Assembly (NCBI RefSeq): GCF_026151205.1
Contig: NC_087077.1
Span: 2,666,001 to 2,730,000 of the forward strand
DNA from: Bolinopsis microptera
Taxonomy: Eukaryota; Ctenophora; Tentaculata; Lobata; Bolinopsidae
Direction of reading: 5' to 3'
Length of the DNA stretch: 64,000 nt
Under the pieces are notes generated by a model. It made no database searches. It saw only the letters and a list, made by a program, of their open reading frames with translations, and had not been told where the DNA came from. Of this stretch, positions 4,131 to 60,332 are shown one piece after another. Every line of letters starts with the position of its first letter. Position 1 is the first letter of the stretch. Position numbers and translations under genes: made by a program.

Positions 4131-4214
4131 GTTAGTTGTAATTATGAAACCGTAAAGAAACACAGTACACAACACACACAATACACAGATACACAGCTAC
4201 CCTCCTGGTCGCGT

Positions 4215-4455
4215 CAGTATACTTACCTCCCGTCAGTTTACTTACCTCCCGTCAGTATTCTTACCTCCCGTCAGTATTCTTACCTCCCGTCAGTATACTT
4301 ACCTCCCGTCAGTATTCTTACCTCCCGTCAGTATACTTACCTCCCGTCAGTATACTTACCTCCCGTCAGTATTCCTACCTCCCGTCAGTATACTTACCTC
4401 CAGTCAGTATACTTACCTCCCGTCAGTATACTTATCTCCCGTCAGTATACTTACT
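4215..4455. repeat. 19-bp minisatellite, ~13 copies
   Basis: Head-to-tail copies of CAGTATACTTACCTCCCGT with small variants (tattctt, tattcct). The copies are nearly uniform, so the array looks recent. Confidence 0.9.
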
Positions 4456-20100: not shown

Positions 20101-23100
20101 ATGGTTGAGCACGCGGAGCAGGACAACGAACTGGGCAGTGAGAGTATTAAAGCTATCGCTGAAAGTGTGGGTGTTAAAGATCTTAATGGGGACTGCACAG
20201 CTTATCTTGCCAAGCAGGCGCTTCTTCAGGTATGTGGAGAGAAGGCTTATATCATATTTTCACATTAATATGTGTTAAGTTACACTTTCTTCTGGAAGGT
20301 CCTATTTTTGAACATTCAGAAGTATTCAGATATTTGATAGTTGCCTCAGGTATCTCTTGGGTTGGCTAATGTTATGTCAACAGGCTAGAACGATACTGCG
20401 AGATGCTCTCAAGTACAAGCTAATGACGCACTCGGTAGAGTTGACGACAGATCATATGGAGCGAGCTAACAAGCGCCCTGTCCCTATCTACGCCTCTACT
20501 GGCCAGAAACCTAGGAAGTAAGTGCTCAGCAAATTCTTGTGACATTTTGTTGTAATAATGTAGATGAGCTAATGAGAATGAAAAAGTTTGTAAGTAATTT
20601 AACTTATTAAATTTGGCTCTGAGATCAATAGAAATTCCATCCTCTCAATCTCTGTGTGATTTTGTATATGCTACGTGATCTTATGAGGCTACTTCACGTC
20701 ATGTCAAATTCTAAAGTCGGGATACAGTAAATAAAGCAACTGAGTCTGTTATCTGAACTATATTCCAACAAAATGTGTATCGTCAAGAGTTCAGCGAAAG
20801 ACTAAACACTACAAGTAGAGACCTATTGAACCTATTTAGAGGTTTAGAAGTGGGCATCTTTACGGCCGTCACGCAATTCGCGGACCACCTGTGGACACGT
20901 ATGATAACAGTTAATAGTTAATAATAATATGATAAACTACAGTAATTAAAAGAGAGTAGAAACTACCCAAATCCCGTGTTGTGTTAGTGTAGGGGTTTTT
21001 GTTCGCCACTTTGCAGAACAGCATTAACTCCTTTCATTAAAACTTACCAATTTAATTACTATTTCTTATTACCGGCCGCGGCCGGGGATATGAAACATAC
21101 GGTATCTGGCAAGGAGCCCAGAGAGTATAGCTAATGGAGGGGAGGGAATATATTAGGGGTAAAATTAGGCAGTTATTGGTTACCGTGGTCAGCTAACCAA
21201 AGTAAACTGTGCTCGTGCAAAATTAATCTGTTGCTGCTATTGGAATTATTGACTTTCAAAATAAAAATCAGTTTTCCTCTCCGCAATCAAGCTTCTTTGA
21301 CATCTGATATCGTAATTTCACTTCTTTTCCAGATACTGTATGGCGACCTCTAGAGGTCGGGAGATATACGGAGCTCAGGACGAGGAAGTCGATCTGGATA
21401 CTATCTTATCAGCTCCGCCACCCAAGGTACAGGACTCAAGTTTTATCGTGATTAAATGTTATTCTGTCAATCAAAGTGATATTCTGCCGAGTGAAAGGAC
21501 GTGAATTTTAGGAGCAATCAGATTGATAACGTGATGTGCAACAAAACCATAACGAGGTCCGACACTTGGTATCTTACACGTGCAAACATTCGGACCGTTT
21601 CGTCTACAAAATCACCAGTTTCGGTGTGCGCGGCTCACCTACTGTGTGGCAAATTTTACTATAAACGTCGGGCGCTCAGCAAAACTTGTGATAGTCACGT
21701 GATTATTTGTGCGCGTACTAGCAAATTATCTAACAAATTTGATGTCATGTAGTGGAACTAGCTGTTATACTGGTCTATTTGTTGAATCACATGGCATGCA
21801 TTCAAATATCAGTTGATGCCAAAATACATGAATTTAGAGATTTATTTAGACAAGTTTCTTTAAGGTACCGCAAGATGTGCAGGTGAAGGTGCATTGGCTG
21901 ACTATCGAAGGTTCGACCCCAACTATTCCGGACAACCCGCCTATGGAGGACGACAAACTTGTTATCGGTAAAAAATAAAATGCGTCTTTTGTTTCATTCC
22001 AAATAGGGGCCATCTACTTAGGATTTCCGCAAAATCGCAGATATTCGAACCACCCCCCCCCCCCCCCCCCGGATTTGTCCGAAATTCCAAAACCACCCCT
22101 CCCTATTTGCCGGACGTCCTAAGTAGATGGCCCCTTAAGACGTTTCCGTCCAATTTACGTGGAATTTAAACTTTTCGGGTCAGAACTGGGACTGGACGAG
22201 TGATGAAATAATACGAAGAAATAAGTCCCTCCCACTCTTTGTGATGAACTTCGATTTCGCCATACATCTGTTATACAATAATCTATGTTACATTTTCAGA
22301 CGCTCCAGTAGTCTCAATAGACAACGTAGAAGCAGTAAACTCGGTGGCCCCACACGAAATTTCCAGAGAACAGCAACTATATTTCAAGTTAGAAAATGTT
22401 AAATCTGTTTTACATACATCATCGAAAAGAAATATTCACCTCTCGTGCTCCAAAATGTCATTCTATTTTCTATCTTAAAAACAAAAAACACATCAAAAAT
22501 GAAAACAAACAACGAACTCTTCAACAGTACTCTAAATAAAATTTCCACATACCCCCCCCCCCCCCCACATCTATTCCCATCCATTTCCACCTAACCCCCA
22601 ACATCCCCCCCCAGAGAACTGACCACAAAGTGTATATCAAACGAGAAGCAAGTACGAGACGAAGCAGTTCACAGTCTGTCCACAGACCCTGGTCTGGCAG
22701 CAGTCTTGCCGCGTCTCACTGTCTTTATAATAGAGGGCATACGTGTTGGCCTGGGTGACTGCAAGATGTACTATATTCAAGTTAGTTTTATATAGACAGT
22801 TTTCGGGAGTTCCAAATAATTTCCGATTATTCTGATTTATTGCGACAAATGATACTGCACTGTTAGGATAAAAGACGTTTCAAAGTAACAACTTCGTATT
22901 CATGCTCAAATTATTTGAGTAGTGTTGAAAGTATTAAAACTTAGTTTTATAGTTAGTTTAGTTTCTATCATAAGTCATAACCCTTGCATTAAGTTGGTTT
23001 GGTTTAATCTTTTTTCGAAAGCTTCTGCGGTCTGTTCACCCTAAAAGAGTAAAAGGGTGCAAGTGGTTCCTGTTTATGTACAATGTACATTATTGTTTTA

Positions 23101-26100: not shown

Positions 26101-29100
26101 CATAACAGGGACAAAAGGATTTCGCGGTTATTTTGGCCAAAAATCGCGGCACCCCGACAAGCCAAACTAGGCTAATTCGCGGCGGGAATTTCGAAAATCG
26201 CGGCATATTCGCGGCAAAAAAATCGAAAAAACGCGGCAAAAAATAATGTATTTACAGTGCTTAGTTAGAGTTCACATATTCTTTGACTATTCTGTTTGAT
26301 CGGCACATGTCCCATGAGGATGTGATCTCATCATATGATCTGATACAGGCTGATGGGGGTCCATAACAACAAGAGCTGCCATAACTTTTGACATGATCTC
26401 AAATGTTGCAATGTCATACGTACTGTATGACATATCTCGTTATCGATACTATATAACTTTCAACAGACGACAGGAGACATCATCATTCGACCATCTACAC
26501 TTCACAACTATAGCAATGGAATACTACGAACTTTTCAATCCAATTCCCATATCCTAGTCTATCCCCATCTAGTATCCAACCTCTACCCCTTGAAGTTTAC
26601 ATCAACCTGGACGACATCCTTACCCCGGCCTCCTGCACGAACCTTCTAGATTTTCTAACCACATCCCGAGGGAAGCCCATGATTGTTCCTTATGTGGTCT
26701 ACGACGAGATTACATGCTCTACAAAATAGCTTCCCATTGTCAGCATAAAACGAAGATTTGCCAAATTCAGCCACTCTCGTGGAAGCTGTTACATTGCCCT
26801 GTTTAGCCTGTTTCGAGCGTTTGCTACCCTTCGATACACGATTTTGGACTCGAGGGCTCCCTTGTAATGCGATCTCGGAAGGCAGACCTCCCCTTCGCAA
26901 TACGAGCTTGGAAGCGGGAGCTCCGCCTTCAGAGGTACGTATCGAGAATGACTCGGACAGAAAATTTTCAGTCAAAATTTTTCAAAGTTTTTCTGGAAAC
27001 TACTTTTGTTCATGTTTCATGCTACCCTGATCATTATGAGCCGAAAATATTTTTTCGGTTTTCAAAGGTCACATACCCTTCGATACACGATTTTGGACTC
27101 GAGGGCTCCCCTTGTAATGCGATCTCGGAAGGCAGGCCTCCCCTTCGCAATACGAGCTCGGAAGCTTGACCAGTAGACATATAAAACTTGACCAGACGAC
27201 ATAAAGTTGACCAGTAGACATATAAAACTTGACCAGACGACATAAAGTTGACCAAACGACATATAAAACTTGACCAAACGACATAAAGTTGACCAGACGA
27301 CATTAAGTTGACCAGTAGACATAAAAAACTTGACCAAACGACATAAAGTTGACCAGAAGACATACAATGGATTAAGAAATCGAACTGTATGTTAAATCAG
27401 TGTTGTTATTGAATCGTCACTTGTCAGATATTTCGTCATCGTTATTCGCTTGGTATTGTATTCGCTTGTTATAATGGACCGCTTTGTCAAACGGCCTGCC
27501 GACAAACCGGCTGGACCTTCGTCTAGCAAACGCTCGAAACAGGCTAAACAGGGCAATGTAACAGCTTCCACGAGAGTGGCTGAATTTGGCAAATCATTGT
27601 TTTATGCTGACAATGGGAAGCTATTTTGTAGAGCATGTATCGAAGGGTATGTGACCTTCAGAGGTACGTATCGAGAATGACTCAGACAGAAAATTTTCTA
27701 AGTCAAAATTTTTCAAAGTTTTTCTGGAAACTACTTTTGTTCATGTGTTTCATGCTACCCTGATCATTATGAGCCGAAAATATTTTTTTCGGTGTTCAAA
27801 GGTCACACATACCCTTCGATACACGATTTTGGACTCGAGGGCTCCCCTTGTAATGCGATCTCGGAAGGCAGGCCTCCCCTTCGCAATACGAGCTCGGAAG
27901 CGGGAGCTCCGCCTTCAGAGATACGTATCGAGAATGACTCGGACCGAAAATCTTCTAAGTCAAAATTTTTCAAAGTTTTCATGCTACCCTGATCATTATG
28001 AGCCGAAAATATATTTTTCGGTTTTCAAAGGTCACACATACGCTTCGATACACGATTTTGGACTCGAGGGCTCCCCTTGTAATGCGATCTCGGAAGGCAG
28101 GCCTTCCCTTCGCAATACGATCTCGGAAGCTCCGGAAGCTCGGAAGCTCCGCCTTCAGAGGTATGTATCGAGAATGTACCTACAATCGGAACTCACGGAA
28201 GGCTGTAAATGTGATTAGTTTCATATACTTAATACTTGTAGAAAACGTGACATTTGGCCCGCAGATTGTATGGAAAATACGCAAACTTGGTCCTCAGTTT
28301 TAAAGAAAAATGCTCAAATTTGTCCTCAGATTTAAAGCAAAATGCGCAAATTTGGTCTTTAGATTTAAAGGAAAATGCGCGATTTTTCGCGGAGGACTGA
28401 AAAAATCGCGATTTGACGCGGAGAATGGGAAATTTCGCGATCTGTCGCGGAAAACGTAAAAAATCGCGATTTGTTGCGGAGAATGGGAAATTTCGCGGTT
28501 TCGTACATGCCGCGAAATCCTTTTGTCCCTGGGCCATAAGAACACCAAACTAGGACCCTTATCTCAGTTCAAGGGTCCTAGTTTGTTGGTCGACTGCCAT
28601 CTCAAAAACAAGTTTCACAAATAAAATACGCACGATGACTATTTGGATACAAGATAATCTGGGGAAATACTTCTCTATTTATATGCTTTTCTAAGGGTTA
28701 AGGAGCTCTTTACCCATTATACGACAACAAAGAGCTGTGGTGAGAGTGATGGGTCTAGACACTAGAGGCTAATCAATATTTGATATTAATTAATATTGAG
28801 TTGGCAGATTAGTATATTGCAGACAATGGACCATCAGTGGGCATGGTGAATATAAAAGAAGTACTGATGTACTCACCATTTTGACCCAAATAACAAATTT
28901 ATAGATGGTATTTAGATGGTAATTTATTGTCAATTGTCTAGGTGGCTACAAAGCATCTGTGATTGGTTATTTTGTACCATCTTTATACCATGGTTTATTT
29001 AGAGTGTTCAATTGTATGGTATTAAAATCCAGCACCAAACAAATTGGTGAACAAAGGCTATGATTTAATTTGGTCGATTTAAATTGGTTGAACTGTCGTG

Positions 29101-32100
29101 GATAAAGAGTAGTCGAGACATTTTGTGGGTACAAGATGGAAATATAAAAGTGTCAAACAGTATATATACGATAAAGTAATTCAAGTGTTGCAATTGGCAG
29201 AGCACAATACAGAGGTAACGGAAATTGTCCAATGCTACCAATATTATATAATATGAAATATCGACAATCAGATATATATACACATCTACTCCATCATAGG
29301 GGCAGGGATGAGGTTTTAAGAGACTTCTGATAGTGGTGTCTCATATTTGCTGTGGGTACAAGATAGCGTTCATATAGTTTTACAAGTGTCGTAATGATAA
29401 ACTTACCCGAGGTCTTATTTTTACAATTATTCGACTGATTAAGTCGTGTAGTGTTATTGGGTCTCATTTGACGATTCTTTCAAGAAAATTTCTGATTTTT
29501 TCTGAAGAGACTCAGTGATGACAATGTTCTAATGAAAACAAATAGATAAATCACGTATCATGACGAGGACAAGAGATAAAAGATTAAAGGACAAAAAAGA
29601 AATAAATGGACGGTAGAAAAGTCAAATTTATACGATAATACTACTATTAAATTAAAAATTTATCATGCCACTCAACTTAAAGCTGCTCTCAGTCATTTCT
29701 TCAACAGTCTGTTCCCAGATATGTGCCTACATAGCTGTTTCATCAACCTCTTTTCTATTCTTACTTTGAGTTGCAACTGTTCCTTTACCTCCTCTTGCCT
29801 CCTTCTTACTGTTTTCTGGGTCACGAAACACGAAAATATCGCAAAGAATTTCGCTTTGATGAAATTCCGAAAGCTTGTTATGGAAACCGTGTAGATGAAT
29901 ACATTTGCAATGTTGTTCAAGTATGGAATACATTTACAAAACATTTTCGTTTTAACGTAGCTATGTTTACCATCATAAATCACCTTCAGGACATAATATC
30001 CAAAAAGGGGCAACATGCTGGTGCAATACACAACTGCTATCAAGATTACAGTTAAGATTCCCTGAAGATTAGCTGATCTCCCTTGTCGGTGGCTCAACCT
30101 TACAGCGATCACTATCAGCCATGTGCCAGAAATCACTACTATGACAGTGCAGAGTAGTGTTACACTGAATACTACGATTGCTGATTTAATAAACAATTCC
30201 ATAATAATTATCAGGTCGCAACTTAACTGCTGATGAGAGTATTTAACGCTTATTTTATCTTTTTGCAGAAAAATAGGTAATAAAAGGGCTAATGAGGCAG
30301 CCCACATGCAGCTTGCTAGAATGTGTCCTTGTCGATAAGTCCATCTTGCACCTCTGAAAGGAAACAGGATAGACGCTAGTTTGGAACAATTTATAGTTGC
30401 AGTCAAAAGAGCAGTAGAACAGCTCAGAAACCATCTGGAATATGCTTGTAAAGCACAGAAGTTTTCTCCTAACAACCAACGGTCCGTGATGGCAGCAAAG
30501 CAAGTGGGGAAGAGAATAACGAGTGTAGTCAAGAGGTCGAGAACTGCAACGTGTTGAATCAGCGCAGTTGTTATCTTGCCCACCCTAATTACTCTCTGTT
30601 TAGTAGCTATTAAGATGACAGTATTTCCAGTCAGTCCAATCAGTGTACCAAGAAGGAGAATTGTTGAGAAGAGTGAACGGGCCAAAACAGGGTTTACATT
30701 GTCAAGAACCCACCCGTCTTCAAACAGACTGTCATCTTTGGAAGGGGCCCATATTTCTCCCATATTGCTAAGGATAGAGAACTACGGAATAAGTGTTAAC
30801 AACTTCTTTGAATAATGATCTCCAATTATTTAAAAAACAGTACGAGATAGCTTGTGACTTCTCTCCTTGACAAAAATCTGCTTGATAGAACAAGAAAATT
30901 TCTAATTTTTCTTGAACAGTAGATAGTATAACTTTAACATGTGGGTTGAAAGAAATACCAAACGCTATAAAACACCCTACCGTCATACCAATACCAAGAC
31001 CGGAGACTAAAATCGGAGCAAATACTTATAAGCGCACTTTGAAATATTAAAGAATTAAGTTGCTTCATTATACTTCTAAACGTTGACCACATGCGCGGAA
31101 TTTGAAGCGGAATTACTGCCATAATTGCTCTATTTCGCATTCCTCTCTAGGCCACGAATTACGAAACAGAGAATTCTTACGTCTGAGTTTTTGACTTGTA
31201 AGCCAAGACTCCTGTGTAAAATTTGGCTTAGATTCTGACTCACTGGCTCAAAAGTTGGGCTCACCGAAACTAAATATTAACTAAGTATTGGCGTAGCGGA
31301 TCTAATTTTCCACACTTTCGATTTTTCACTCTTTCGCCGTAGCCCAGGAAAATTAGGAAAATTAGGAAAACCAGGAAAATAGATCTCAACTAGGAAAACC
31401 AGGAAAAACAACCAGGAATCTGGACCATGATTAGAGTATTTGTTTAAAAAAGTCCAAAAGAGCGCGAATAGCAATTTTCGAGCTTCAAAATAAAAAGATG
31501 TTGCCTGTGGCGCACCAGAATTATTTTCATTTAATCTAGTTCGACATGCACTCTAATTCGACAAACCCTAAAGTTCGACTCTGTCGGACTTCAGTACACA
31601 ACCTGAAATCTAGTTCGGCATGTACTGAAATTCGACACGATAACTTCGACTGTCGAACTACGGTACACTACCCGCTGCACTCTCATTGGACACGAATTTA
31701 TCAAAACCAATCAAAACACAGCATCGATGGTTGGTATTTTATAGCATTGATATACCGTGATTATACCATTCAAAACTATCCGTTTGTCAGACTATCTCGA
31801 GTGTTCCACTTGTATGGTATAAAGATAAAGATAATCCGCTAAATCCAGCAGCGAACAAATTGGTGAACAATAGCCATGAACTCGTGTTCAATGAATCTAA
31901 TTGCGCTCTTTTCAACCGAACAAATGCTACCTTCTCCGACTTAGTTTGATAGGATTTTCGTGGATAAGTCGTGAAATAATTTGAATGACACTTTACAGCA
32001 AACGTTGGGCCTTTCATGATCACTTATCAACATGCACAGCTGCTACAAGTTAACGTAAAAACATTAACAGAGTTAAAATTATGTAAGAGGGTGTTCACCC

Positions 32101-35100
32101 CTGGACGCGAGAAGGTATTCAGGATCAGCCATCAGGTATTCAGGTTCAGGTATTCAGGATCAGGTATTCAGGATCAGGTATTCAGGATCAGGTATTCAGG
32201 ATCAGGTATTCAGGATCAGGTATTCACACGCATTTTGAATATTTTGCAACACTCGCCACTGTTTGTATGTGTAATCGACACGACAATCGCACACGTAATA
32301 TGTTCTAGTGTGCATCCTGTAGAAAATCAGACCTCACTCCTCATTAATACCACGTGATCTGTTCATGACGTGACACGTTGGATCACAAGCAGAAAATGGA
32401 GGGAAAATATTTGTCGGACTAGAATACGCTACCTGGACTCTAGTTCGACACGTACCGAAGTTCGACAGGGTTTATCTCTGGTGAACTTTAGTCGTCGAAC
32501 TAAAGTATATTATGTCGAACTGGAGTACGCCAATCTTGGATTCAGTACGCTATAGATTTTAATCGATCTATTAATATGCACTGCATACATTAGGAATTTC
32601 CATTATTATCATCGCGTGTGTTTTAATATCCTAATTGATAAAAGAAGACTCAATCTTGAAAAACAAACAACAGCTATTATTTTAAAATAACATTATGGAA
32701 TTACAATCTGCTACATCTAAATAATTTAGTAAAATTTCCATATTATTAAAATAAAATCAAGAAAGAGTATCTGGTCGACTAAATTGGGTTGGTCTACGAC
32801 TGGATACTGTTCTAGCTAACGTCCCATTCCCTCTACAGAATATCTTAGTGTCAACAAAACGTTTAAAACTTGCTATAGAAAGATAGTAAATGATAGGGTT
32901 GGCCACGAAATTCAGATTTAAAATGTAAACTACAAACCGGTATATCTGAGGAAAATAAAGAATTTTCCGCACATCAATTCCAGTGGCCATCACGGCAAAG
33001 AATGCCGAGTATGGAATGTTTGAAATAAAGAAATTGACAGATACTAAGATTATTGTCACAACCCCTTGCATCTGTAGTCCGGTCGTACTCTTCTTCGCAG
33101 CATACACCAGCAGCCATACCGAAGTTACCAGAATCACGAGAAACGGTCCAAACAGGATGAGAAGAGCAAAATAAATTACAATCCAATCGCACTTAGCTCT
33201 ATAACTACTGTTACACTGAAATGTAGCATAATCAAAGGACTGCGGAGGACTACACAACCAGTAGGGCACCAGTTGAGCCACCAGCACACTTGCCACCCAC
33301 ACCACCACCGCCACAATCCAGCCGGTTTTCTTGGAACGGGCCCGGGTCCTCAGGGGATACAACAGGTTGGTTAGCTTGCTGATGTTCATTGCACATAGAA
33401 GGTAGATGTCCGCGCAGAGGAACACTTCGTCCGCCAGGTTGAAGAAGGAGCTGATGATATCTGCAAATATCTGGCGTTCTGCCACGATGTAGACGGTGGA
33501 GGGGATGATGCAGGTGAAGGTGAAACCAAGATCAGCTAGAGCTGTGTTAGTGATCAGTATCACGGACACGGCGTCTAGTTTTATAGAGCTGTACTTGAGG
33601 GTGGCGAGCAGGACGGTGATGTTTCCTACTGTTGAGATAAGGGCAGAGCAGAGGTTCCAGCTTGCTAGTAGCCACTTCTCTGGGGAGGTTATCGGGGTTG
33701 GGTCCATGTTGTAGGAAATACTTGGTGCTGAGTTGGTTTGTTGAAACAATACAAACTTTGAGAAGTTAGACGAATTAGCTGAAAGGGATGAGTTTGCTGT
33801 GGTGGGAAACTAGGGGGAAATTGTTAGGCTGTTCCAGTAATCTTCGTAGTCATGAAAATCAACACCTGTTGAAAGAAAGACTGGTTAAATTAGGAGAGGT
33901 TAATTTCCTTTTTTGTTATGAAAGTTTAAAATGAGGAGTCCAAAGTATAAGGGTTGAAAAAACGCTCGACATCCTTCGCAATAAACGCAGACGAAAGTTT
34001 CAAGAAGTGTTGAAATTTAAATGGCTTCAAAAACGACGACAAGCTCACTTTATATAAACTTCCCGACTGGACTAAATACCACAGCAAATTTGACGGATGT
34101 TGTCCGCTCTGCATGAACCATCCCTTTGGTCGACATCACCCTGACTCTGACCTAGGCTCCATTCAGGCGGATTGTAATGACCTACAATCACCTGAATCTT
34201 GATATCCTGACAAAAGCGGCCGTTGGTTGGTCTCCATACTCACATACCACACATTTCATACCCTAAACCTATTATATAAGTCACAACACATGGTGCTGCA
34301 TAACCGCAGATCTAAGTAAAACTACAGGTAAATATAAGTACAGATACTGTGATAGTGACGTGTGGGATAGTTCACGTCAAAGCATGTAATTGCAGATCAG
34401 TTCCAGCTGGTAGGTCCAGCTGACAGGTGATCAATAATTGTGGGATTTAGTCCCCGTCCCACCACACCAAGTGACTTTAGGGTGGTAATCAGGGTGGGAT
34501 GAAGTAGCCAAAGCAAACGCTAAAAGTAGTCATGTGACGACGTAAGCTGTGAGAAATTGGCTTACGAAATTTAAATCTAATGAATGAATAATGAGGAACA
34601 ATTTAGAGTCACAGATATGCTATGTTACTACTTGTTATAGCTCTAAAATGCACGAAAGATGTAGAATATGCTCTGATATCCACATATTTTCAGTATATGT
34701 TAGAGATGCTGGATAATCTACTACAAAACAAGGCGATAAGGCTGGAGAAGTTTCTACACGATATCATTCCATCAGTTATCAGCTGTATGGTTTGCACCCA
34801 AATATGTGGTAAGTCAAATGGTTTGTCGATGGTCATAATGCATATATTATGATATGTACATTTTTTCGGGCGATAGTTTGCTGGATTTCTATTATAACTA
34901 GTGGTTAAGATAAGATAATTTTGGATACATCAGCAAGAGTGCGAACTAGACAAAATCTCGTAAAGACATTAAGATTTGAGCGCAGTTTGTGTTAACTTTT
35001 TAAAAATTAATAGGAAGAAAAAAAAATCGTAAGAAGACGTGCTTTTGCACACTTTGCCCTACTTTTGCAGGCTTCATTAAAAACTAATTGTAAAGATCCA

Positions 35101-38100
35101 GGTTTTCAGTTTCAATTCCGATGATTATCAGATTTAGGGATCGTGGAGGTGCTTTTACTTAATTTCATAGCTGGAAAGTTAATTATAAGTTCTTTTCAAT
35201 AACGTGTGTTCGAAAACACTGAAATAAATGAGGAACATCAAATATTCACGAAAACTCTCAATATGTAGTTTCAAAATGAAAAGCGCACAAGTAAGGTTAT
35301 ATTCCTGTTAAAAACAATTAACCTCAGCTAAATTCAGAAAGTAGATCCACCTAACCTCATAGAAAATAACCTCACCTAACCAATAACCTCACCTAACTCC
35401 AGAAAATAACCTCACCTTAACTCATATAAAAACGTCACCTAACCCCAGAAAATAACCTCACCTAATAACCTCCCAGGTCGACCCCTCGAACAGGACCACT
35501 GGTCAGTACGAGGGTTTGCCTCCAGGATCCTAGCAGGACTGGTCCGGTCCCACAACCTGGGAACTAACCAGATCCAGAGTAGGGTTATTAAGATGCTGCA
35601 TCACGCTCTGGATAAACAGAACTCTGGGCTCGTATCCACTTTCGGAGTGCTAGGTATTATGAGTTCGGGAGATTGTACATATCATATTACCTATCAGTAT
35701 TCAGTATCAACTCGTATGATAAAATAGTTATTGAAATATGATAACTTTCTCACGGATCGTACAGACTTCAACAGTCACATGACGAGAGCTGAGTCCCTAG
35801 AAAATAATCTAACCTTATATATTTCAGCTGGTTTGTGTGAGCTGGGTTCGTTAACAATCAGCACGATAGTTCTTCCTGAGATACGGAACATTTACAGGTA
35901 CACTATGACGTAATAGTAAGCAAAATTAGAAAAATATGTTTCTGATTAGAAAATGTCTCTACTGTATGTATATTAATATACACAGCGTTCAGGAGCCGAG
36001 TTGGGTAAAATAAGCTCATCTGAAAGTAGATGTAGCACACTGCGACGGATCCTTCATCTGTTTTGTTTTTCTAGACCACTTCTGGATCGGCTTAGTAAAG
36101 AAATTGTATCGGCAATAATCGCTTGGATTATATATTAATCAGGAATCATAACCAATAATAACAACCGATATAATAATAACTGAATACTGATATACCTGTC
36201 TCAGGAGAGTTGAACTAAAGTGTGCCACCTCCCAAGATCCTATAGACAGGCATGCTAAGGAGAGGATAAAGGAACTGTTAGTGCGGAAATGTGCCCACGT
36301 GGTTCAGGAACATCTCCCAGAGCTTCTCAGGTACAATTTGCTGGTTTATTCGTTTGAACATCTCCCAGAGCTCCTCAGGTACAATTTGTTGGTTTGTTCT
36401 TGAACATCTCCCAGAGCTCCTCAGGTTCAATTTGTTGGTTTGTTGGTTTGAACATCTCCCAGAGCTTCTCAGGTACAATTTGTTGGTTTGTTCGTTTGAA
36501 CATCTCCCAGAGCTCCTCAGGTACAATTTGTTGGTTTGTTCGTTTGAACATCTCCCAGAGCTCCTAAGGTTCAATTTTTTGGTTTGTTTGTTTGAACATC
36601 TCCCAGAGCTCCTCAGGTACAATTTGTTGGTTTGTTCGTTTGAACATCTCCCAGAGCTCCTAAGGTTCAATTTTTTGGTTTGTTTGTTTGAACATCTCCC
36701 AGAGCTTCTCAGGTACAATTTGTTGGTTTATTCGTTTGAGCATCTCCCAGAGCTCCTCAGGTACAATTTGTTGGTCTGTTCGTTTGAACATCTCCCAGAG
36801 CTTCTCAGGTACAATTTGTTGGTTTATTCGTTTGAACATCTCCCAGAGCTTCTCAGGTACAATTTGTTGGTTTATTCGTTTGAACATCTCCCAGAGCTTC
36901 TCAGGTACAATTTGCTGGTTTGTTCGTTTGAACATCTCCCAGAGCTTCTCAGGTACAATTTGTTGGTTTATTCGTTTGAACATCTCCCAGAGCTTCTCAG
37001 GTACAATTTGTTGGTTTATTCGTTTGAACATCTCCCAGAGCTTCTCAGGTACAATTTGCTGGTTTGTTCGTTTGAACATCTCCCAGAGCTTCTCAGGTAC
37101 AATTTGCTGGTTTATTCGTTTGAACATCTCCCAGAGCTCCTCAGGTACAATTTGTTGGTTTGTTCGTTTGAACATCTCCCAGAGCTCCTGAGGTACAATT
37201 TGTTGGTTTATTCGTTTGAACATCTCCCAGAGCTCCTCAGGTACAATTTGTTGGTCTGTTCGTTTGAACATCTCCCAGAGCTCCTCAGGTACAATTTGTT
37301 GGTTTGTTGGTTTGAACATCTCCCAGAGCTCCTCAGGTACAATTTGTTGGTTTGTTCGTTTGAACATCTACCAGAGCTTCTCAGGTACAATTTGTTGGTC
37401 TGTTCGTTTGAACATCTCCCAGAGCTCCTCAGGTACAATTTGTTGGTTTTTCGTTTGAACATCTCCCAGAGCTCCTCAGGTACAATTTGTTGGTCTGTTC
37501 GTTTGAAAATCTCCCAGAGCTCCTCAGGTACAATTTGTTGGTTTGAACATCTCCCAGAGCTCCTCAGGTACAATTTGTTGGTTTGTTTGTTTGAACATCT
37601 CCCAGAGCTCCTCAGGTACAATTTGTTGGTTTGTTCGTTTGAACATCTCCCAGAGCTTCTCAGGTACAATTTGTTGGTTTATTCGTTTGAACATCTCCCA
37701 GAGCTCCTCAGGTACAATTTGTTGGTCTGTTCGTTTGAACATCTCCCAGAGCTCCTCAGGTACAATTTGTTGGTTTGAACATCTCCCAGAGCTCCTCAGG
37801 TACAATTTGTTGGTTTGTTCGTTTGAACATCTCCCAGAGCTCCTCAGGTACAATTTGTTGGTTTGTTCGTTTGAACATCTCCCAGGGCTCCTCAGGTACA
37901 ATTTGTTGGTTTGTTCGTTTGAACATCTCCCAGAGCTTCTCAGGTACAATTTGTTGGTTTGTTCGTTCGAACATCTCCCAGAGCTCCTCAGGTACAATTT
38001 GTTGGTTTGTTCGTTTGAACATCTACCAGAGCTCCTCAGATACAATTTTTTGGTTTATTCGTTTGAACATCTCCCAGAGCTTCTCAGGTACAATTTGTTG

Positions 38101-41100
38101 GTCTGTTCGTTTGAACATCTCCCAGAGCTCCTCAGGTACAATTTGTTGGTCTGTTCGTTTGAACATCTCCCAGAGCTCCTCAGGTACAATTTGTTGGTTT
38201 GTTCGTTTGAACATCTCCCAGAGCTCCTCAGGTACAATTTGTTGATTTGTTGGTTTGAACATCTCCCAGAGCTCCTTAGGTACAATTTGTTGGTCTGTTC
38301 GTTTGAACATCTCCCAGAGCTCCTCAGATACAATTTTTTGGTTTATTCGTTTGAACATCTCCCAGAGCTCCTCAGGTACAATTTGTTGATTTGTTGGTTT
38401 GAACATCTCCCAGAGCTCCTTAGGTACAATTTGTTGGTTTGTTCGTTTGAACATCTCCCAGAGCTTCTCAGGTACAATTTGTTGGTTTGTTGGTTTGAAC
38501 ATCTCCCAGAGCTTCTCAGGTACAATTTGTTGGTTTGTTCGTTTGAACATCTCCCAGAGCTCCTCAGGTACAATTTGTTGGTCTGTTTGTTTGTACATCT
38601 CCCAGAGCTCCTCAGGTACAATTTGTTGGTTTGTTTGTTTGAACATCTCCCAGAGCTCCTCAGGTACAATTTGTTGATTTGTTGGTTTGAACATCTACCA
38701 GAGCTTCTCAGGTACAATTTGTTGGTTTGTTCGTTTGAACATCTCCCAGAGCTCCTCAGGTACAATTTGTTGGTTTGTTCGTTTGAACATCTCCCAGAGC
38801 TCCTCAGGTACAATTTGTTGGTCTGTTTGTTTGTACATCTCCCAGAGCTCCTCAGGTACAATTTGTTGGTTTGTTTGTTTGAACATCTCCCAGAGCTCCT
38901 CAGGTACAATTTGTTGATTTGTTTGTTTGAACATCTACCAGAGCTTCTCAGGTACAATTTGTTGGTCTGTTCGTTTGAACATCTCCCATAGCTCCTCAGG
39001 TACAATTTGTTGGTTTGTTTGTTTGAACATCTCCCAGAGCTCCTCAGGTACAATTTGTTGGTTTGTTCGTTTGAACATCTCCCAGAGCTCCTCAGGTACA
39101 ATTTGTTGGTCTGTTCGTTTGAACATCTCCCAGAGCTCCTCAGGTACAATTTGTTGGTTTATTCGTTTGAACATCTCCCAGAGCTTCTCAGGTACAATTT
39201 GTTGGTCTGTTCGTTTGAACATCTCCCAGAGCTCCTCAGGTACAATTTGTTGGTTTATTCGTTTGAACATCTCCCAGAGCTCCTCAGGTACAATTTGTTG
39301 GTTTATTCGTTTGAACATCTCCCAGAGCTTCTCAGGTACAATTTATTGGTTTATTCGTTTGAACATCTCCCAGAGCTCCTCAGGTACAATTTATTGGTTT
39401 ATTCGTTTGAACATCTCCCAGAGCTTCTCAGGTACAATTTATTGGTTTATTCGTTTGAACATCTCCCAGAGCTCCTCAGGTACAATTTATTGGTTTATTC
39501 GTTTGAACATCTCCCAGAGCTCCTCAGGTACAATTTGTTGGTTTGTTTGTTTGAACATCTCCCAGAGCTCCTCAGGTACAATTTGTTGGTCTGTTGGTTT
39601 GAACATCTCCCAGAGCTTCTCAGGTACAATTTGTTGGTCTGTTGGTTTGAACATCTCCCAGAGCTCCTCAGGTACAATTTGTTGGTCTGTTCGTTTGAAC
39701 ATCTCCCAGAGCTCCTCAGGTACAATTTGTTGGTCTGTTCGTTTGAACATCTCCCAGAGCTTCTCAGGTACAATTTGTTGGTTTGTTCTTTTGAACATCT
39801 CCCAGAGCTCCTCAGGTACAATTTGTTGGTTTGTTCGTTTGAACATCTCCCAGAGCTCCTCAGGTACAATTTGTTGGTCTGTTCGTTTGAACATCTCCCA
39901 GAGCTTCTCAGGTACAATTTGTTGGTCTGTTCGTTTGAAAATCTCCCAGAGCTCCTCAGGTACAATTTGTTGGTCTGTTCGTTTGAACATCTCCCAGAGC
40001 TCCTCAGGTACAAATTGTTGGTTTGTTCGTTTGAACATCTCCCAGAGCTCCTCAGGTACAATTTGTTGGTCTGTTCGTTTGAACATCTCCCAGAGCTTCT
40101 CAGGTACAATTTGTTGGTCTGTTCGTTTGAAAATCTCCCAGAGCTCCTCAGGTACAATTTGTTGGTCTGTTCGTTTGAACATCTCCCAGAGCTCCTCAGG
40201 TACAATTTGTTGGTTTGTTCGTTTGAACATCTCCCAGAGCTCCTCAGGTACAATTTGTTGGTTTGTTCGTTTGAACATCTCCCAGAGCTCCTCAGGTACA
40301 ATTTGTTGGTCTGTTCGTTTGAACATCTCCCAGAGCTTCTCAGGTACAATTTGTTGGTCTGTTCGTTTGAAAATCTCCCAGAGCTCCTCAGGTACAATTT
40401 GTTGGTCTGTTCGTTTGAACATCTCCCAGAGCTCCTCAGGTACAATTTGTTGGTTTGTTCGTTTGAACATCTCCCAGAGCTTCTCAGGTACAATTTGTTG
40501 GTCTGTTCGTTTGAAAATCTCCCAGAGCTCCTCAGGTACAATTTGTTGGTCTGTTCGTTTGAACATCTCCCAGAGCTCCTCAGGTACAATTTGTTGGTCT
40601 GTTCGTTTGAACATCTACCAGAGCTCCTCAGGTACAATTTGTTGGTTTGTTCGTTTGAACATCTCCCAGAGCTTCTCAGGTACAATTTGTTGGTTTGTTT
40701 GTTTGAACATCTCCCAGAGCTCCTCAGGTACAATTTGTTGGTCTGTTCGTTTGAACATCTCCCAGAGCTCCTCAGGTACAATTTGTTGGTTTGTTGGTTT
40801 GAACATCTCCCAGAGCTTCTCAGGTACAATTTGTTGGTTTGTTCGTTTGAACATCTCCCAGAGCTTCTCAGGTACAATTTGTTGGTTTGTTCGTTTGAAC
40901 ATCTCCCAGAGCTTCTCAGGTACAATTTGTTGGTCTGTTCGTTTGAGCATCTCCCAGAGCTCCTCAGGTACAATTTGTTGGTCTGTTCGTTTGAACATCT
41001 CCCAGAGCTTCTCAGGTACAATTTGTTGGTTTGTTCGTTTGAACATCTCCCAGAGCTTCTCAGGTACAATTTGTTGGTTTGTTCGTTTGAACATCTCCCA

Positions 41101-43223
41101 GAGCTTCTCAGGTACAATTTGTTGGTCTGTTCGTTTGAGCATCTCCCAGAGCTCCTCAGGTACAATTTGTTGGTCTGTTCGTTTGAACATCTCCCAGAGC
41201 TCCTCAGGTACAATTTGTTGGTTTATTCGTTTGAGCATCTCCCAGAGCTTCTCAGGTACAATTTGTTGGTCTGTTCGTTTGAACATCTCCCAGAGCTCCT
41301 CAGGTACAATTTGTTGGTCTGTTCGTTTGAACATCTCCCAGAGCTCCTCAGGTACAATTTGTTGGTCTGTTCGTTTGAACATCTCCCAGAGCTCCTCAGG
41401 TACAATTTGTTAGTTTGTTTGTTTGAACATCTCCCAGAGCTTCTCAGGTACAATTTGTTGGTCTGTTCGTTTGAACATCTCCCAGAGCTCCTCAGGTACA
41501 ATTTGTTGGTTTATTCGTTTGAACATCTCCCAGAGCTCCTCAGGTACAATTTGTTGGTTTGTTCGTTTGAACATCTCCCAGAGCTCCTCAGGTACAATTT
41601 GTTGGTTTATTCTTTTGAACATCTCCCAGAGCTCCTCAGGTACAATTTGTTGGTCTGTTCGTTTGAACATCTCCCAGAGCTCCTCAGGTACAATTTGTTG
41701 GTTTGTTGGTTTGAACATCTCCCAGAGCTCCTCAGGTACAATTTGTTGGTTTGTTCGTTTGAACATCTCCCAGAGCTCCTCAGGTACAATTTGTTGGTTT
41801 GTTCGTTTGAACATCTCCCAGAGCTCCTCAGGTACAATTTGTTGGTCTGTTGGTTTGAACATCTCCCAGAGCTCCTCAGGTACAATTTGTTGGTCTGTTG
41901 GTTTGAACATCTCCCAGAGCTCCTCAGGTACAATTTGTTGGTTTGTTCGTTTGAACATCTCCCAGAGCTCCTCTGGTACAATTTGTTGGTTTGTTCGTTC
42001 GAACATCTCCCAGAGCTCCTCAGGTACAATTTGTTGGTCTGTTGGTTTGAACATCTCCCAGAGCTCCTCAGGTACAATTTGTTGGTTTGTTCGTTTGTAC
42101 ATCTCCCAGAGCTCCTCAGGTACAATTTGTTGGTTTATTCGTTTGAAAATCTCCCAGAGCTCCTCAGGTACAATTTGTTGGTTTGTTGGTTTGAACATCT
42201 CCCAGAGCTCCTCAGGTACAATTTGTTGGTTTGTTCGTTTGAACATCTCCCAGAGCTCCTCAGGTACAATTTGTTGGTTTGTTCGTTTGAACATCTCCCA
42301 GAGCTCCTCAGGTACAATTTGTTGGTTTGTTCGTTTGAACATCTCCCAGAGCTCCTCAGGTACAATTTGTTGGTCTGTTCGTTTGAACATCTCCCAGAGC
42401 TCCTCAGGTACAATTTGTTGGTTTGTTCGTTTGAACATCTCCCAGAGCTCCTCAGGTACAATTTGTTGGTCTGTTCGTTTGAACATCTCCCAGAGCTCAG
42501 GTACAATTTGTTGGTTTGTTGGTTTAAACATCTCCCAGAGCTTCTCAGGTACAATTTGTTTGTTTGTTGGTTTGAACATCTCCCAGAGCTCCTCAGGTAC
42601 AATTTGTTGGTTTATTCGTTTGAACATCTCCCAGAGCTCCTCAGGTACAATTTGTTGGTTTGAACATCTCCCAGAGCTCCTCAGGTACAATTTGTTGGTC
42701 TGTTCGTTTGAACATCTCCCAGAGCTCCTCAGGTACAATTTGTTGGTCTGTTTGTTTAAACATCTCCCAGAGCTCCTCAGGTACAATTTGTTGGTTTGTT
42801 TGTTTGAACATCTCCCAGAGCTCCTCAGGTACAATTTGTTGGTTTGTTCGTTTGAACATCTCCCAGAGCTCCTCAGGTACAATTTGTTGGTCTGTTCGTT
42901 TGAACATCTCCCAGAGCTCCTCAGGTACAATTTGTTGGTTTATTCGTTTATGCTGGCACCTGTGCTCTGGTCACAGGTGTGCTTGTCTCAAGTTTGTTCG
43001 CGTTATTTAACAGGTAAATTGCTTACTAGCAATTAATCAGCATATTCACTTTTAACTTGGTCCTTTTTTGGTTTTTGCGTGAGCCCTCTTCACCGGTCTG
43101 TTCTTACTTATCAATACATTTCATCCCAGTGTTGACGACTACGAGCAGAAGTTTGGTGACATAGGACGTGAAATGTTTTACAAGGTCATGAGACCTACTT
43201 CTCACATGCCAATGATGAAATAA
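20101..43223 (+). CDS. TAF6, TFIID/SAGA subunit, 11 exons across 23 kb
   Basis: TAF6 pairs with TAF9 through a histone fold and scaffolds TFIID with C-terminal HEAT repeats. Exons: 20101-20229, 20384-20517, 21333-21426, 21865-21967, 22300-22387, 22615-22780, 34694-34808, 35477-35653, 35828-35897, 36205-36330, 43130-43223. All junctions are GT-AG and phases agree; the product is 431 residues. Exons 1-2 give the histone fold (SIKAIAESVGV, then LTTDHMERANK). Exons 3-4 match the middle region (RGREIYGAQDEEVDLDTIL, VHWLTIEGSTPTIPDNPP). Exons 5-11 form the HEAT domain (LSTDPGLAAVLPRL, LEKFLHDIIPSVISC, IQSRVIKML, VDDYEQKFGDIG). The long Pro/Ser tail of vertebrate TAF6 is absent. Intron 6 contains three antisense GPCR genes; intron 10 is filled by an array seeded on the exon 10 donor. 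Confidence 0.95.
22004..22136. mobile_element. Short inverted-repeat element with poly-C core, TAF6 intron 4
   Basis: About 130 bases begin with GGGGCCATCTACTTAGGA and end with TCCTAAGTAGATGGCCCC after one base change, with a run of about 20 C in the middle. It has the shape of a miniature inverted-repeat element. No unambiguous target duplication is visible. Confidence 0.6.
22781..23533. other. TAF6 intron 6, proximal part
   Basis: AT-rich intron sequence between TAF6 exon 6 and the first antisense GPCR. Nothing else is recognised. Confidence 0.5.
23534..24634 (-). CDS. Class A-like GPCR, nested in TAF6 intron 6 (copy 1)
   Basis: A 366-residue intronless seven-transmembrane receptor. TM2 has the conserved Asp (AVLDLLTTL), and a Cys (ENFCDLQAY) precedes TM3. 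The DRY position reads NCSKLASMLFPF: no Arg, with Lys instead. TM7 ends ANVFIY, so the NPxxY Pro is replaced by Val. The C-tail is long and basic (RRRQEEVKK). It is highly similar throughout to the receptor at 29693-30763, and their 5' flanks also align for about 300 bases, so the pair arose by segmental duplication. The ligand is unknown, and the altered microswitches make standard G-protein coupling uncertain. The start is the only ATG ahead of TM1 with a conserved context in both copies (MGEI). Confidence 0.9.
   Translation of the reverse strand: MGEIRAPPNNYSLFGGYAKNWWLYHNVNPVLARSLFSTFFLLGTLVGLIGSFVILIATKQKAIRVGKITTALIQHVAVLDLLTTLVILFPTCLAAITDSWLLGENFCDLQAYSRWFLFICTALLTVAMNCSKLASMLFPFRGASWTCRQGHILASCMWAASLALVLILVVQIDKIKVLYRERQLNCELMFISILLFITSAFVILLVALLCTVIVVICGIWLIVIAVRLSHRQGRSANLQGIVTVILIAVVYCISMLPLFGYYALQVIDGNHSLFKTVMFCKCIPYLNNIANVFIYTVSIPSFRNFIKTKLFTIFPCFVTHKRVHPIKGSTNHKIDTNASQRRRQEEVKKTVATPSRNEKEVDETQM
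24635..26097. other. TAF6 intron 6 between GPCR copy 1 and the hAT element
   Basis: It includes the receptor's upstream flank, a 90-base palindromic element at 24875-24964, and AT-rich sequence. The open frames near 25430-26040 have no recognised family and are not supported as genes. Confidence 0.45.
24875..24964. mobile_element. Small palindromic element
   Basis: The left arm ATAATACTCTCGCGCTCT... pairs with the right arm ...AGAGTGAGAGAGTATTAT, and GGCCGCGC on one side pairs with GCGCGGCC on the other, around a short centre containing 'gcccgaacgtagtgagggt'. It starts right after the last base at which the two duplicated GPCR 5' flanks align ('caaacgctataa'). Confidence 0.65.
26655..26860 (-). 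pseudogene. BED-type zinc-finger fragment of a hAT protein (inverted copy)
   Basis: The minus strand encodes SKRSKQAKQGNVTASTRVAE, then FGKSSFYADNGKLFCRAC and NLVVDHIRNNH. Cys-x2-Cys followed by two His fits a BED finger, the DNA-binding start of hAT transposases and of domesticated CGGBP1, which has the same EFG...GKLFC...C spacing. The frame has no start of its own and runs out soon after the finger. Confidence 0.7.
27165..27365. repeat. Minisatellite in the hAT element
   Basis: About nine tandem units on 'ttgaccagacgacataaag' and 'ttgaccagtagacatataaa'. The 101- and 109-residue minus-strand frames here come from this periodicity. Confidence 0.85.
27474..27680 (+). pseudogene. BED-type zinc-finger start of a hAT protein, truncated
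   Basis: It begins MDRFVKRPADKPAGPSSSKR and continues with the same finger half as the inverted copy (FGKSLFYADNGKLFCRAC). The MDRFV start resembles CGGBP1 and related hAT N-termini. After the second Cys the sequence switches to the ~200-bp block and the His pair is lost, so the finger is incomplete and the protein stops at 68 codons after the fusion. Confidence 0.7.
28540..29692. other. TAF6 intron 6 between hAT and GPCR copy 2
   Basis: AT-rich. The stretch at about 28970-29040 resembles 31740-31870 (shared 'gtatggtat', 'ccagca', 'aacaaattggtgaacaa'), suggesting a duplicated noncoding block. No gene is supported. Confidence 0.45.
29693..30763 (-). CDS. Class A-like GPCR, nested in TAF6 intron 6 (copy 2)
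   Basis: A 356-residue paralogue of the receptor at 23534-24634, aligned from MGEI through the C-tail. Conserved parts include ITTALIQHVAVLDLLTTL (TM2), NCSKLASILFPF in place of DRY, LSHRQGRSANLQGI between TM5 and TM6, and ANVFIYTVSI in TM7. Changes concentrate in the N-terminus, the extracellular loop before TM5 (KISVKYSHQQLSCDL against KIKVLYRERQLNCEL) and the C-tail, where a ~20-residue segment of copy 1 is missing. That pattern suits divergence in ligand binding and signalling (inference). It is intact and intronless, antisense to TAF6. Confidence 0.9.
   Translation of the reverse strand: MGEIWAPSKDDSLFEDGWVLDNVNPVLARSLFSTILLLGTLIGLTGNTVILIATKQRVIRVGKITTALIQHVAVLDLLTTLVILFPTCFAAITDRWLLGENFCALQAYSRWFLSCSTALLTATINCSKLASILFPFRGARWTYRQGHILASCMWAASLALLLPIFLQKDKISVKYSHQQLSCDLIIIMELFIKSAIVVFSVTLLCTVIVVISGTWLIVIAVRLSHRQGRSANLQGILTVILIAVVYCTSMLPLFGYYVLKVIYDGKHSYVKTKMFCKCIPYLNNIANVFIYTVSITSFRNFIKAKFFAIFSCFVTQKTVRRRQEEVKEQLQLKVRIEKRLMKQLCRHISGNRLLKK
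30764..32756. other. TAF6 intron 6 between GPCR copy 2 and the third GPCR
   Basis: The first ~250 bases align with the 5' flank of GPCR copy 1. Two related ~100-bp blocks rich in GTTCGAC/GTCGAAC lie at about 31540-31675 and 32411-32530. A 14-bp CAGGTATTCAGGAT minisatellite lies at about 32118-32228. No gene is supported. Confidence 0.5.
32118..32228. repeat. 14-bp minisatellite
   Basis: About eight copies of CAGGTATTCAGGAT, the first ones degenerate. Confidence 0.85.
32757..33707 (-). CDS. Class A-like GPCR, third receptor nested in TAF6 intron 6
   Basis: A 316-residue intronless seven-transmembrane protein. I start it at MDPTPITSPEKW, the first ATG; the frame is open upstream but has no ATG there. 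TM1 has GN (STVGNITVLL), TM2 has the conserved Asp (TALADLGF), the DRY position reads NISKLTNLLYPL, and TM7 ends VANPIIYYL, a normal NPxxY. It is clearly diverged from the two neighbouring receptors but shares the N-x-S-K-L motif and the LQMQGVVTIIL / NLQGIVTVIL segment of TM6, so all three belong to one family. Its DNA is more GC-rich in the 5' half than the neighbours. Ligand unknown. Confidence 0.88.
   Translation of the reverse strand: MDPTPITSPEKWLLASWNLCSALISTVGNITVLLATLKYSSIKLDAVSVILITNTALADLGFTFTCIIPSTVYIVAERQIFADIISSFFNLADEVFLCADIYLLCAMNISKLTNLLYPLRTRARSKKTGWIVAVVVWVASVLVAQLVPYWLCSPPQSFDYATFQCNSSYRAKCDWIVIYFALLILFGPFLVILVTSVWLLVYAAKKSTTGLQMQGVVTIILVSVNFFISNIPYSAFFAVMATGIDVRKILYFPQIYRFVVYILNLNFVANPIIYYLSIASFKRFVDTKIFCRGNGTLARTVSSRRPTQFSRPDTLS
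33708..34693. other. TAF6 intron 6, distal part
   Basis: Upstream flank of the third GPCR and the end of intron 6, finishing with the TTTTCAG acceptor. Nothing else is supported. Confidence 0.45.
35340..35470. repeat. Degenerate short repeat in TAF6 intron 7
   Basis: Repeated 'aataacctcacctaac(c/t)' and 'ccagaaaataacctcaccta' immediately upstream of the exon 8 acceptor. Confidence 0.75.
36308..42949 (+). repeat. 48-bp tandem array made of the TAF6 exon 10 5' splice junction
   Basis: About 138 head-to-tail copies. The first copy is not intergenic: its first 23 bases (GAACATCTCC...CTTCTCAG) are the last bases of TAF6 exon 10, encoding EHLPELLR, and its remaining 25 bases (GTACAATTTG...TTCGTTT) start intron 10. 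Every unit therefore reproduces the exon end, the CAG|GTACAA donor and the intron start. Units differ by a few recurrent variants: CTCCTC or CTTCTC, TTTGTTCG, TCTGTTCG, TTTATTCG or TTTGTTGG, GAAAATC for GAACATC. A few units are short (near 36400, 37545, 37770, 42500 and 42655). Because 48 is divisible by three, four of six frames stay open for hundreds of codons; these frames are not genes. Confidence 0.97.
42950..43129. other. TAF6 intron 10, unique 3' end
   Basis: The array ends abruptly at 'ttcgttt' followed by ATGCTGGCACCTG. The remaining 180 bases are unique and lead to the TTTCATCCCAG acceptor of exon 11. Confidence 0.7.
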
Positions 43224-59880: not shown

Positions 59881-60113
59881 TAGATAACCACTGGGAGACT
59901 TTGGGGCCGAAAACTGATCCGGCCCCCAAAGAGGAGTCAGATCACGTCACCAATTAGTGACGTATAATTAGTGATGTGATCCATCTGTAGAATTTAATTG
60001 GCCCAGAAATAGGCTAGATACTGGGTAGAGTTCACATGTCAATTCTGTACAACATAGCTGTTCATTAAGAAGTAAACATGATCTGACTGCTCGACTCGTA
60101 GAGTCTGGCAGCC

Positions 60114-60332
60114 ATAACCACTGGGAGACTTTGGGGCCGAAAACTGATCCGGCCCCCAAAGAGGAGTCAGATCACGTCACCAATTAGTGACGTATAATTA
60201 GTGATGTGATCCATCTGTAGAATTTAATTGGCCCAGAAATAGGCTAGATACTGGGTAGAGTTCACATGTCAATTCTGTACAACATAGCTGTTCATTAAGA
60301 AGTAAACATGATCTGACTGCTCGACTCGTAGA
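60114..60332 (+). repeat. Second tandem copy of the MULE left terminal repeat
   Basis: Apparently identical to 59884-60102. The junction between the copies reads AGTCTGGCAGCC-ATAAC-CACTGGGAG, that is, the right element tip, part of the target duplication, then the left tip. Confidence 0.9.

Follow-up and report, generated by a model that had tools for sequence, protein, structure and literature searches.

A 139-unit minisatellite built on a TAF6 exon-intron junction, and similarly built arrays at further predicted exon ends of the genome

How does a single intron come to carry more than a hundred copies of its own 5' splice site, and what would those copies do to the splicing of the gene? The question is raised by a minisatellite at positions 36308-42949 (+ strand) of the window, i.e., the whole stretch of 64,000 nucleotides that was analysed. 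Tandem Repeats Finder, run on the 64-kb window, described it as an array with a period of 48, 139.0 copies and a score of 11716, ranking first in both length and score among the 49 rows obtained. An independent parse yielded 139 units as well, the 138 spacings between them being 48 bases in 132 cases, 40 in three, and 47, 46 and 45 in one case each. Each unit is laid out as the final 23 exon bases and the initial 25 intron bases of a TAF6 junction, and unit 1 (36308..36355, +) is the authentic junction itself, carrying the donor CAG|GTACAA with its GT at 36331-36332. The array was thus born from the exon-intron junction of TAF6, as an earlier note on this DNA had claimed. When the whole genome was searched with the first 193 array bases, at least 37 matches were found, all reported ones being inside the 36308-42949 array. 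A perfect 8-bp inverted repeat (CACCTGTG...CACAGGTG, 42957-42979) starts 8 bases past the array end.

The TAF6 model to which the junction belongs covers the last six exons only and was derived from the genomic sequence. The exons, all on the + strand, are predicted at 22615..22780 (TAF6_C domain, donor CAA|gttagt, phase 0), 34694..34808 (TAF6_C domain, donor GTG|gtaagt), 35477..35653 (TAF6_C domain), 35828..35897 (phase-2 donor ACAG|gtacac), 36205..36330 (the exon with the amplified end, phase 2) and 43130..43223 (the final exon, phase 2, ending in TAA). The first three were assigned by Pfam, reading frame and alignment, the fourth and the last by frame and alignment, and the amplified one by the open frame and the alignment with TFIID subunit 6 across the junction. 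Pfam TAF6_C scored above its cut-off in exons at about 22616, 34682 and 35476, and just these three exons were reported among TAF6_C matches at E <= 0.001 in the 264.65-Mb genome. The six exons, once joined, form a single open frame of 248 amino acids terminated by a stop, and residues 1-240 of this query aligned with TFIID subunit 6 (677 aa), which we take to be the human protein, at an E value of 2.1e-42 and with one gap, located away from the 36330/43130 junction. Because the six-exon frame is open and the alignment is gap-free at the junction, the predicted donor of unit 1 is well supported, by phase and homology, as the real TAF6 donor. The reading that the exon ends at 36330 and that the gene resumes at 43130 in matching phase is likewise upheld, both exons being in phase 2 and the frame open. 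The intron so predicted (36331..43129, +) is 6799 nt long and would measure 205 nt if the 138 extra units were taken away; its unrepeated remainder (42950..43129, +) closes with the acceptor ttcatcccag. An extra exon at ~36075 was considered and rejected, as by eye no donor there fits the phase-2 end required by the next exon; we left it out because the chain lacking it aligns with TFIID subunit 6. A PDB search with the single exon 36191-36331 returned nothing useful (best E 0.65).

Two other introns of the predicted gene hold features of their own. One inferred TAF6 intron (22781-34693) houses, in antisense orientation, three receptor genes of the rhodopsin family (7tm_1) on the - strand (23534-24670, 29693-30781 and 32757-33809), each of them one uninterrupted open frame; intron-nested genes are described for the ctenophore Hormiphora in PMC8527503. 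In addition, a pyrimidine-rich array of CACCTAACCCCAG-like units at 35319-35465 stops 11 bases before the exon at 35477, and is thus an acceptor-side array in TAF6 that contains no exon sequence.

The earlier note had counted ~138 identical copies of the donor. The count is sound, as the array has 139 units, but the identity is not: the 139 units comprise 50 distinct sequences, CAG|GTACAA is kept in 130/139 and GT[AT]CAA in 137/139, the GT being lost in units 37 and 43. The full-length units (n = 133) have a mean pairwise identity of 95.1%, i.e., 2.34 of 48 bases differ, and each unit bears an extra AG upstream of its donor (CCCAG|AGCTCCTCAG|GT). Unit 1 has the same sequence as unit 17 and shows one mismatch to units 9, 11-16 and 29, among others, which means that sequence of the real exon end has been exchanged with the array or copied into it. 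Recurrences of one and the same unit type were over-represented at a spacing of 3 (17 vs 8.2 shuffled) and of 4 (20 vs 8.1), and this excess, confined to short spacings of about 3-5 units, indicates that the units evolve in concert within the array. The copy number comes from one assembly, and long near-identical arrays assemble poorly, so one may ask whether the number of units was produced by the assembler. We regard this as very unlikely, given that the 50 unit types are ordered with an excess of identity at short spacings only, and that the same anatomy was found at other loci (see below).

The unit length of 48 bases, equal to 16 codons, invites another reading, namely that of a coding repeat; the unit reads EHLPELLRYNLLVCSF and is stop-free through the first two units. 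This reading was rejected, and we give it practically no chance. The frame is not kept across units but is shifted by the spacings of 40, 46 and 47; stops occur in every forward frame of the array (32, 99 and 13 in the three); and the alignment with TFIID subunit 6 requires the array to be removed. The array is non-coding.

The array is most likely a mirage, a minisatellite grown by tandem duplication of the junction; it would be spliced out within one intron that starts at the first donor, and would be close to neutral. A short tandem duplication, from 23 bases inside the exon to 25 bases inside the intron, would have placed a second donor downstream, and slippage or unequal exchange would then have grown the array to 139 units, with the intron of some 205 nt swelling to 6.8 kb. 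As the duplicated stretch started upstream of the donor, all extra copies would be intronic, and the mRNA would be unchanged provided that the 5'-most donor joins the acceptor 43129/43130. This first donor should be favoured because it is transcribed earliest and is paired with the acceptor 36204/36205 through exon definition; it would not win by sequence, because the neighbouring donors are alike. A splice from the donor of one unit to the CAG| ahead of another GT would shorten the array and regenerate the same exon end. The closure argument, by which any splice from CAG|GT to CAG|GT restores the exon end, would be limited by the extra AGs, as internal splicing at the upstream AG of a unit would presumably not be silent. 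Overall, we infer the order of events, the use of the first donor and the neutrality of the array, which may be expected to be carried along at little cost. Recursive splice sites, or zero-length exons, have CAG| and |GT juxtaposed. The TAF6 units juxtapose the same two elements, as putative sites judged by sequence, and differ from recursive sites in the additional AGs just upstream.

A rival reading is that the decoy donors act. Choice would be spread over the field of donors, leading to intron retention or isoforms, chiefly through donor 2 with its additional 16 amino acids, and would tune the level of TAF6. Such an effect is conceivable in that 137/139 donors are intact, the first donor is no better than the others, and the reading frame survives the use of donor 2. 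Of the 136 alternative GT[AT]CAA donors that were tried against 43130, donor 2 alone kept the TAF6 frame open, and its use would add 48 nt. The remaining ones would cause a frameshift or a stop if chosen, which counts against regulated use; since a mis-selected inner donor would break the frame, complete neutrality is not guaranteed either. The donor positions are variable at 4/9, compared with 18/39 for the other positions of the unit, and thus there is no sign of decoy donors being purged or preserved: the donor bases are conserved no more than the remainder of the unit. Moreover, splicing is reported as undisturbed at amphioxus mirages (PMC3087553, PMC3902484). We consider an active role of the decoys unlikely.

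Even less probable, in our judgement, is that the array serves as a dense U1 platform shielding a long intron against premature polyadenylation. Numerous U1-like sites do lie within this single intron, but the donor GTACAA is a weak U1 match beyond +3, as judged by the consensus, and neither AATAAA nor ATTAAA was found in the array, nor AATAAA in the remainder of the intron. Without the array the intron is just 205 nt, which leaves nothing long needing protection. A mirage carried along almost neutrally remains our preferred explanation.

The earlier note knew of no described counterpart of such an array. That statement has to be withdrawn, as amphioxus mirages are tandem repeats across exon-intron boundaries with AG/GT in many units. 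According to PMC3087553 (2010), the amphioxus globin genes BflGb6 and BflGb9 contain minisatellite-like tandem duplications at exon-intron boundaries, called "mirages", a name traced there to Adh3 (Canestro et al. 2002), of which the units are 10-72 bp. The same paper gives two BflGb6 haplotypes with 6 and 3 units, AG/GT being present in many though not all of them, describes undisturbed splicing (by RT-PCR) together with length instability, and uses mirage-type repeats for modelling intron gain. PGBD5 and TnC are further amphioxus mirages according to PMC3902484. The TAF6 array resembles these cases in that it spans an authentic exon-intron boundary, has AG/GT in many units (130/139 and 137/139, as above), overlaps them in unit length and has units evolving in concert; the amphioxus mirages can affect both 5' and 3' boundaries. 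Differences exist too. The TAF6 array has 139 units, unlike the 6 and 3 given for BflGb6, and its units 1 and 17 are the same, whereas boundary units are reported in PMC3087553 to be excluded from homogenisation. The mirages described under this name in these papers are cephalochordate and the TAF6 array lies in what is probably a ctenophore, a difference that concerns occurrence and not nature. Finally, the TAF6 array is known from the sequence of one assembly, whereas the amphioxus cases carry RNA and population data.

Other systems are related more loosely. Exon-boundary tandem repeats (mean 30-bp units x4) occur in genes of human segmental duplications, as PMC2812944 reports, and these have in common with the TAF6 array that intron structure can be altered when a minisatellite expands at the edge of an exon; the human repeats gave new introns by cryptic sites, whereas the TAF6 intron seems merely enlarged. 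Tandem duplication of AGGT has been connected with intron gain (Rogers 1989, via PMC3087553; potato RdRp, PMC4974935). The TAF6 array likewise consists of tandem AG|GT copies, each potentially both donor and acceptor, but no new TAF6 intron position is evident, and a pre-existing intron seems to have grown. A paper on earthworm metallothionein genes (PMC12783039) mentions a minisatellite and an exon-intron junction. In the titles and beginnings of abstracts of the ctenophore papers listed, no such arrays were reported, which is weak evidence of absence with subscription journals mostly uncovered.

Does the same anatomy exist elsewhere in this genome? We scanned 264.65 Mb in 232 contigs with patterns in which a strong donor motif occurs three times, with spacers in between, so that AG|GT is present in the units by construction. 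Among the matches listed, there were at least 7 arrays for AGGTAAGT, at least 8 for CAGGTRAGT and at least 6 for AAGGTRAGT (one in common with AGGTAAGT). Flanks were examined for 6/7 of the AGGTAAGT arrays and 8/8 of the CAGGTRAGT arrays; the start of one (L045) was not reached, leaving 13 resolved, and five further AAGGTRAGT arrays on C1 lie outside these 13. Exons beside the arrays were called by eye from reading frames, splice signals and Pfam. Seven of the 13 resolved arrays start at a predicted exon end, and in 5/7 the frame resumes in phase behind the array. The other six (L036, L037, L038, L041, L047 and L048) had no recognised exon end within the 0.7-0.9 kb examined.

The seven loci differ in how much is known of the gene. 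An ADAM-type protease at C1:14.12 Mb has an exon ending in ...CDCGTEE|GTAAGT, followed by 8 units of ~44 bp and by the next exon ECIASDPCCEP (phase 0/0); Reprolysin was detected in the two exons preceding the array (E 3.8e-8 and 6.1e-4, the latter just under the cut-off). In an Img2-like gene at C1:4.18 Mb, the exon ends in ...VPPYPVRTVVNK|GTAAGT, 44-bp units extend over ~1.9 kb, and the next exon reads VFGDYNVLVEDLL (phase 0/0). Pfam Img2, a mitochondrial large subunit ribosomal protein, matched across this junction with an E value of 1.1e-7, its 32.4 bits being below the cut-off of 34.4. The predicted exon at C3:5.82 Mb ends in ...MFSAVFDMKCQ|GTGAGT and is followed by ~4.65 kb of 46-bp units and a next exon in phase 0/0; 20-bp units at C4:1.26 Mb and 25-bp units at C1:12.06 Mb are flanked in phase 2/2 and 0/0, respectively. 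For the remaining two, 4 copies of 41-bp units at C4:3.73 Mb and 29-bp units at C5:13.82 Mb, the next exon was not found within 1 kb. The last array stands behind a WD40-like exon that matched the MABP1/WDR62 model at E 1.7e-5, below the cut-off of the model, and the preceding four loci (C3:5.82, C4:1.26, C1:12.06 and C4:3.73 Mb) gave no significant Pfam family. For TAF6 and five other predicted genes there is thus support from the exons both before and behind the array, and mirages recur in this genome as a real class.

Several further arrays came to our attention. About 4 copies of a 37-40-bp unit with CTCCTCAG|GTAC stand directly before a predicted exon at C4:3729.5 kb (about 120-290 of L051), and look like a mirage of a 3' splice site. 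A 47-bp array with TTTTCAGGACAG in each unit, at C3:10522198-10525882 and from 10725660, is possibly another acceptor-side array. L036 and L037 (C1:36.6 and 761 kb) share the same 32-bp donor-motif array in similar repeat-like DNA, which is probably carried by a mobile element. On the - strand at C1:5066597-5067258 (L022), an array of 20-bp units with GGGGTRAGT lies ~100 nt past the donor MRPITVEVMMQKYTLG|GTAAGT of an exon predicted to be the first coding one. Within the window, 12.8 copies of a 19-bp unit at 4212-4454 read GGAGGTAAGTATACTGACG on the - strand and contain the donor motif GGAGGTAAGT, with no exon recognised alongside; a 14-bp array of ATCAGGTATTCAGG at 32131-32226 has CAG|GTA in every unit; and a 230-bp unit is repeated ~2x in tandem at 59884-60332 with 100% matches. 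Roughly 100 or more 45-bp units (GAGTTAAGAAGGAGGCAGAGAGC...) form an array at C2:16404415-16408931.

Recurrence at exon ends raises the possibility that donors are preferred seeds, i.e., that a process linked to 5' splice sites, be it mutational or selection for arrays, gives birth to minisatellites more often there. Genome-wide, windows with AGGTAAGT numbered 498+762 = 1260 against 11+0 = 11 for the motif written backwards, those with CAGGTRAGT 236+463 = 699 against 12+4 = 16, and those with AAGGTRAGT 371+718 = 1089 against 25+6 = 31, and predicted exon ends host 7/13 resolved arrays. Windows are not equal to arrays, however: 359 were counted for a permuted motif and 132 for that motif reversed, and one 45-bp array accounts for all but one listed place of the permuted motif. 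With controls spanning 11 to 359 and long arrays dominating, we discarded window counts as an enrichment statistic, unstable as they are in view of the permuted control. On C1, which is complete in both lists, AGGTAAGT occurs in 5 arrays, two of them sharing a unit, and the permuted motif in 1. For AGGTAAGT, CAGGTRAGT and AAGGTRAGT combined, this 26.2-Mb chromosome holds at least 13 distinct arrays. In 264 kb, AGGTRAGT was present in 1/57 Tandem Repeats Finder arrays against 0/57 with the units reversed, too few to decide, and AGGTAAGT and its reverse were about equally frequent outside arrays (5 vs 6). Many strong donor motifs in a genome would be real donors anyway, and 7/13 at exon ends is therefore not in itself an excess. 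The acceptor motif TTTTCAG x3 gave 915 windows against 213 genome-wide, on a T-rich background. Preferred seeding is accordingly a tentative idea that we rather doubt; the case for a birth preference for donors is weak to moderate, and such a preference is not established. It is attractive to speculate that 5' splice sites are minisatellite hot spots in this ctenophore lineage, that arrays of up to more than 100 units are tolerated there because they are closed under splicing, and that introns grow in this way from ~0.2 to several kb, albeit we hold this extension to be no less doubtful.

Other sequences of the assembly can be set beside known ones. At E<=1e-20, the ligand-binding part of an ionotropic glutamate receptor at C12:11.79 Mb (L054) matched no more than four distinct PDB sequences. 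Three belong to ML032222a, with a best E of 3.8e-32, and the fourth is 4zdm; they come from the ctenophores Mnemiopsis and Pleurobrachia, so that this fragment points to a ctenophore as the source. A longer fragment of this receptor is less specific, a kainate-5 receptor chimera ranking ahead of ML032222a, which comes second. The best matches of a second glutamate receptor (L055) were of the AMPA type, and ML032222a was absent among its best 60 matches. At C5:8335643 (L012), a GGTCGGAGGTC-type repeat follows an incomplete copy of the 18S rRNA gene; a full-length match lies in L013, and its 18S sequence looks non-bilaterian. A search of the assembly for COX1 gave no match.

What is new here is that mirages recur in this genome; the kind itself is already known from amphioxus. 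The TAF6 intron offers a natural test object for how the spliceosome chooses among more than 100 near-identical donors, by transcription order or exon definition as opposed to strength, and for how introns grow. Since several genes show this anatomy, the question can be posed genome-wide. If the assignment to a ctenophore is true, mirages extend from amphioxus to a non-bilaterian animal, and would be no cephalochordate oddity.
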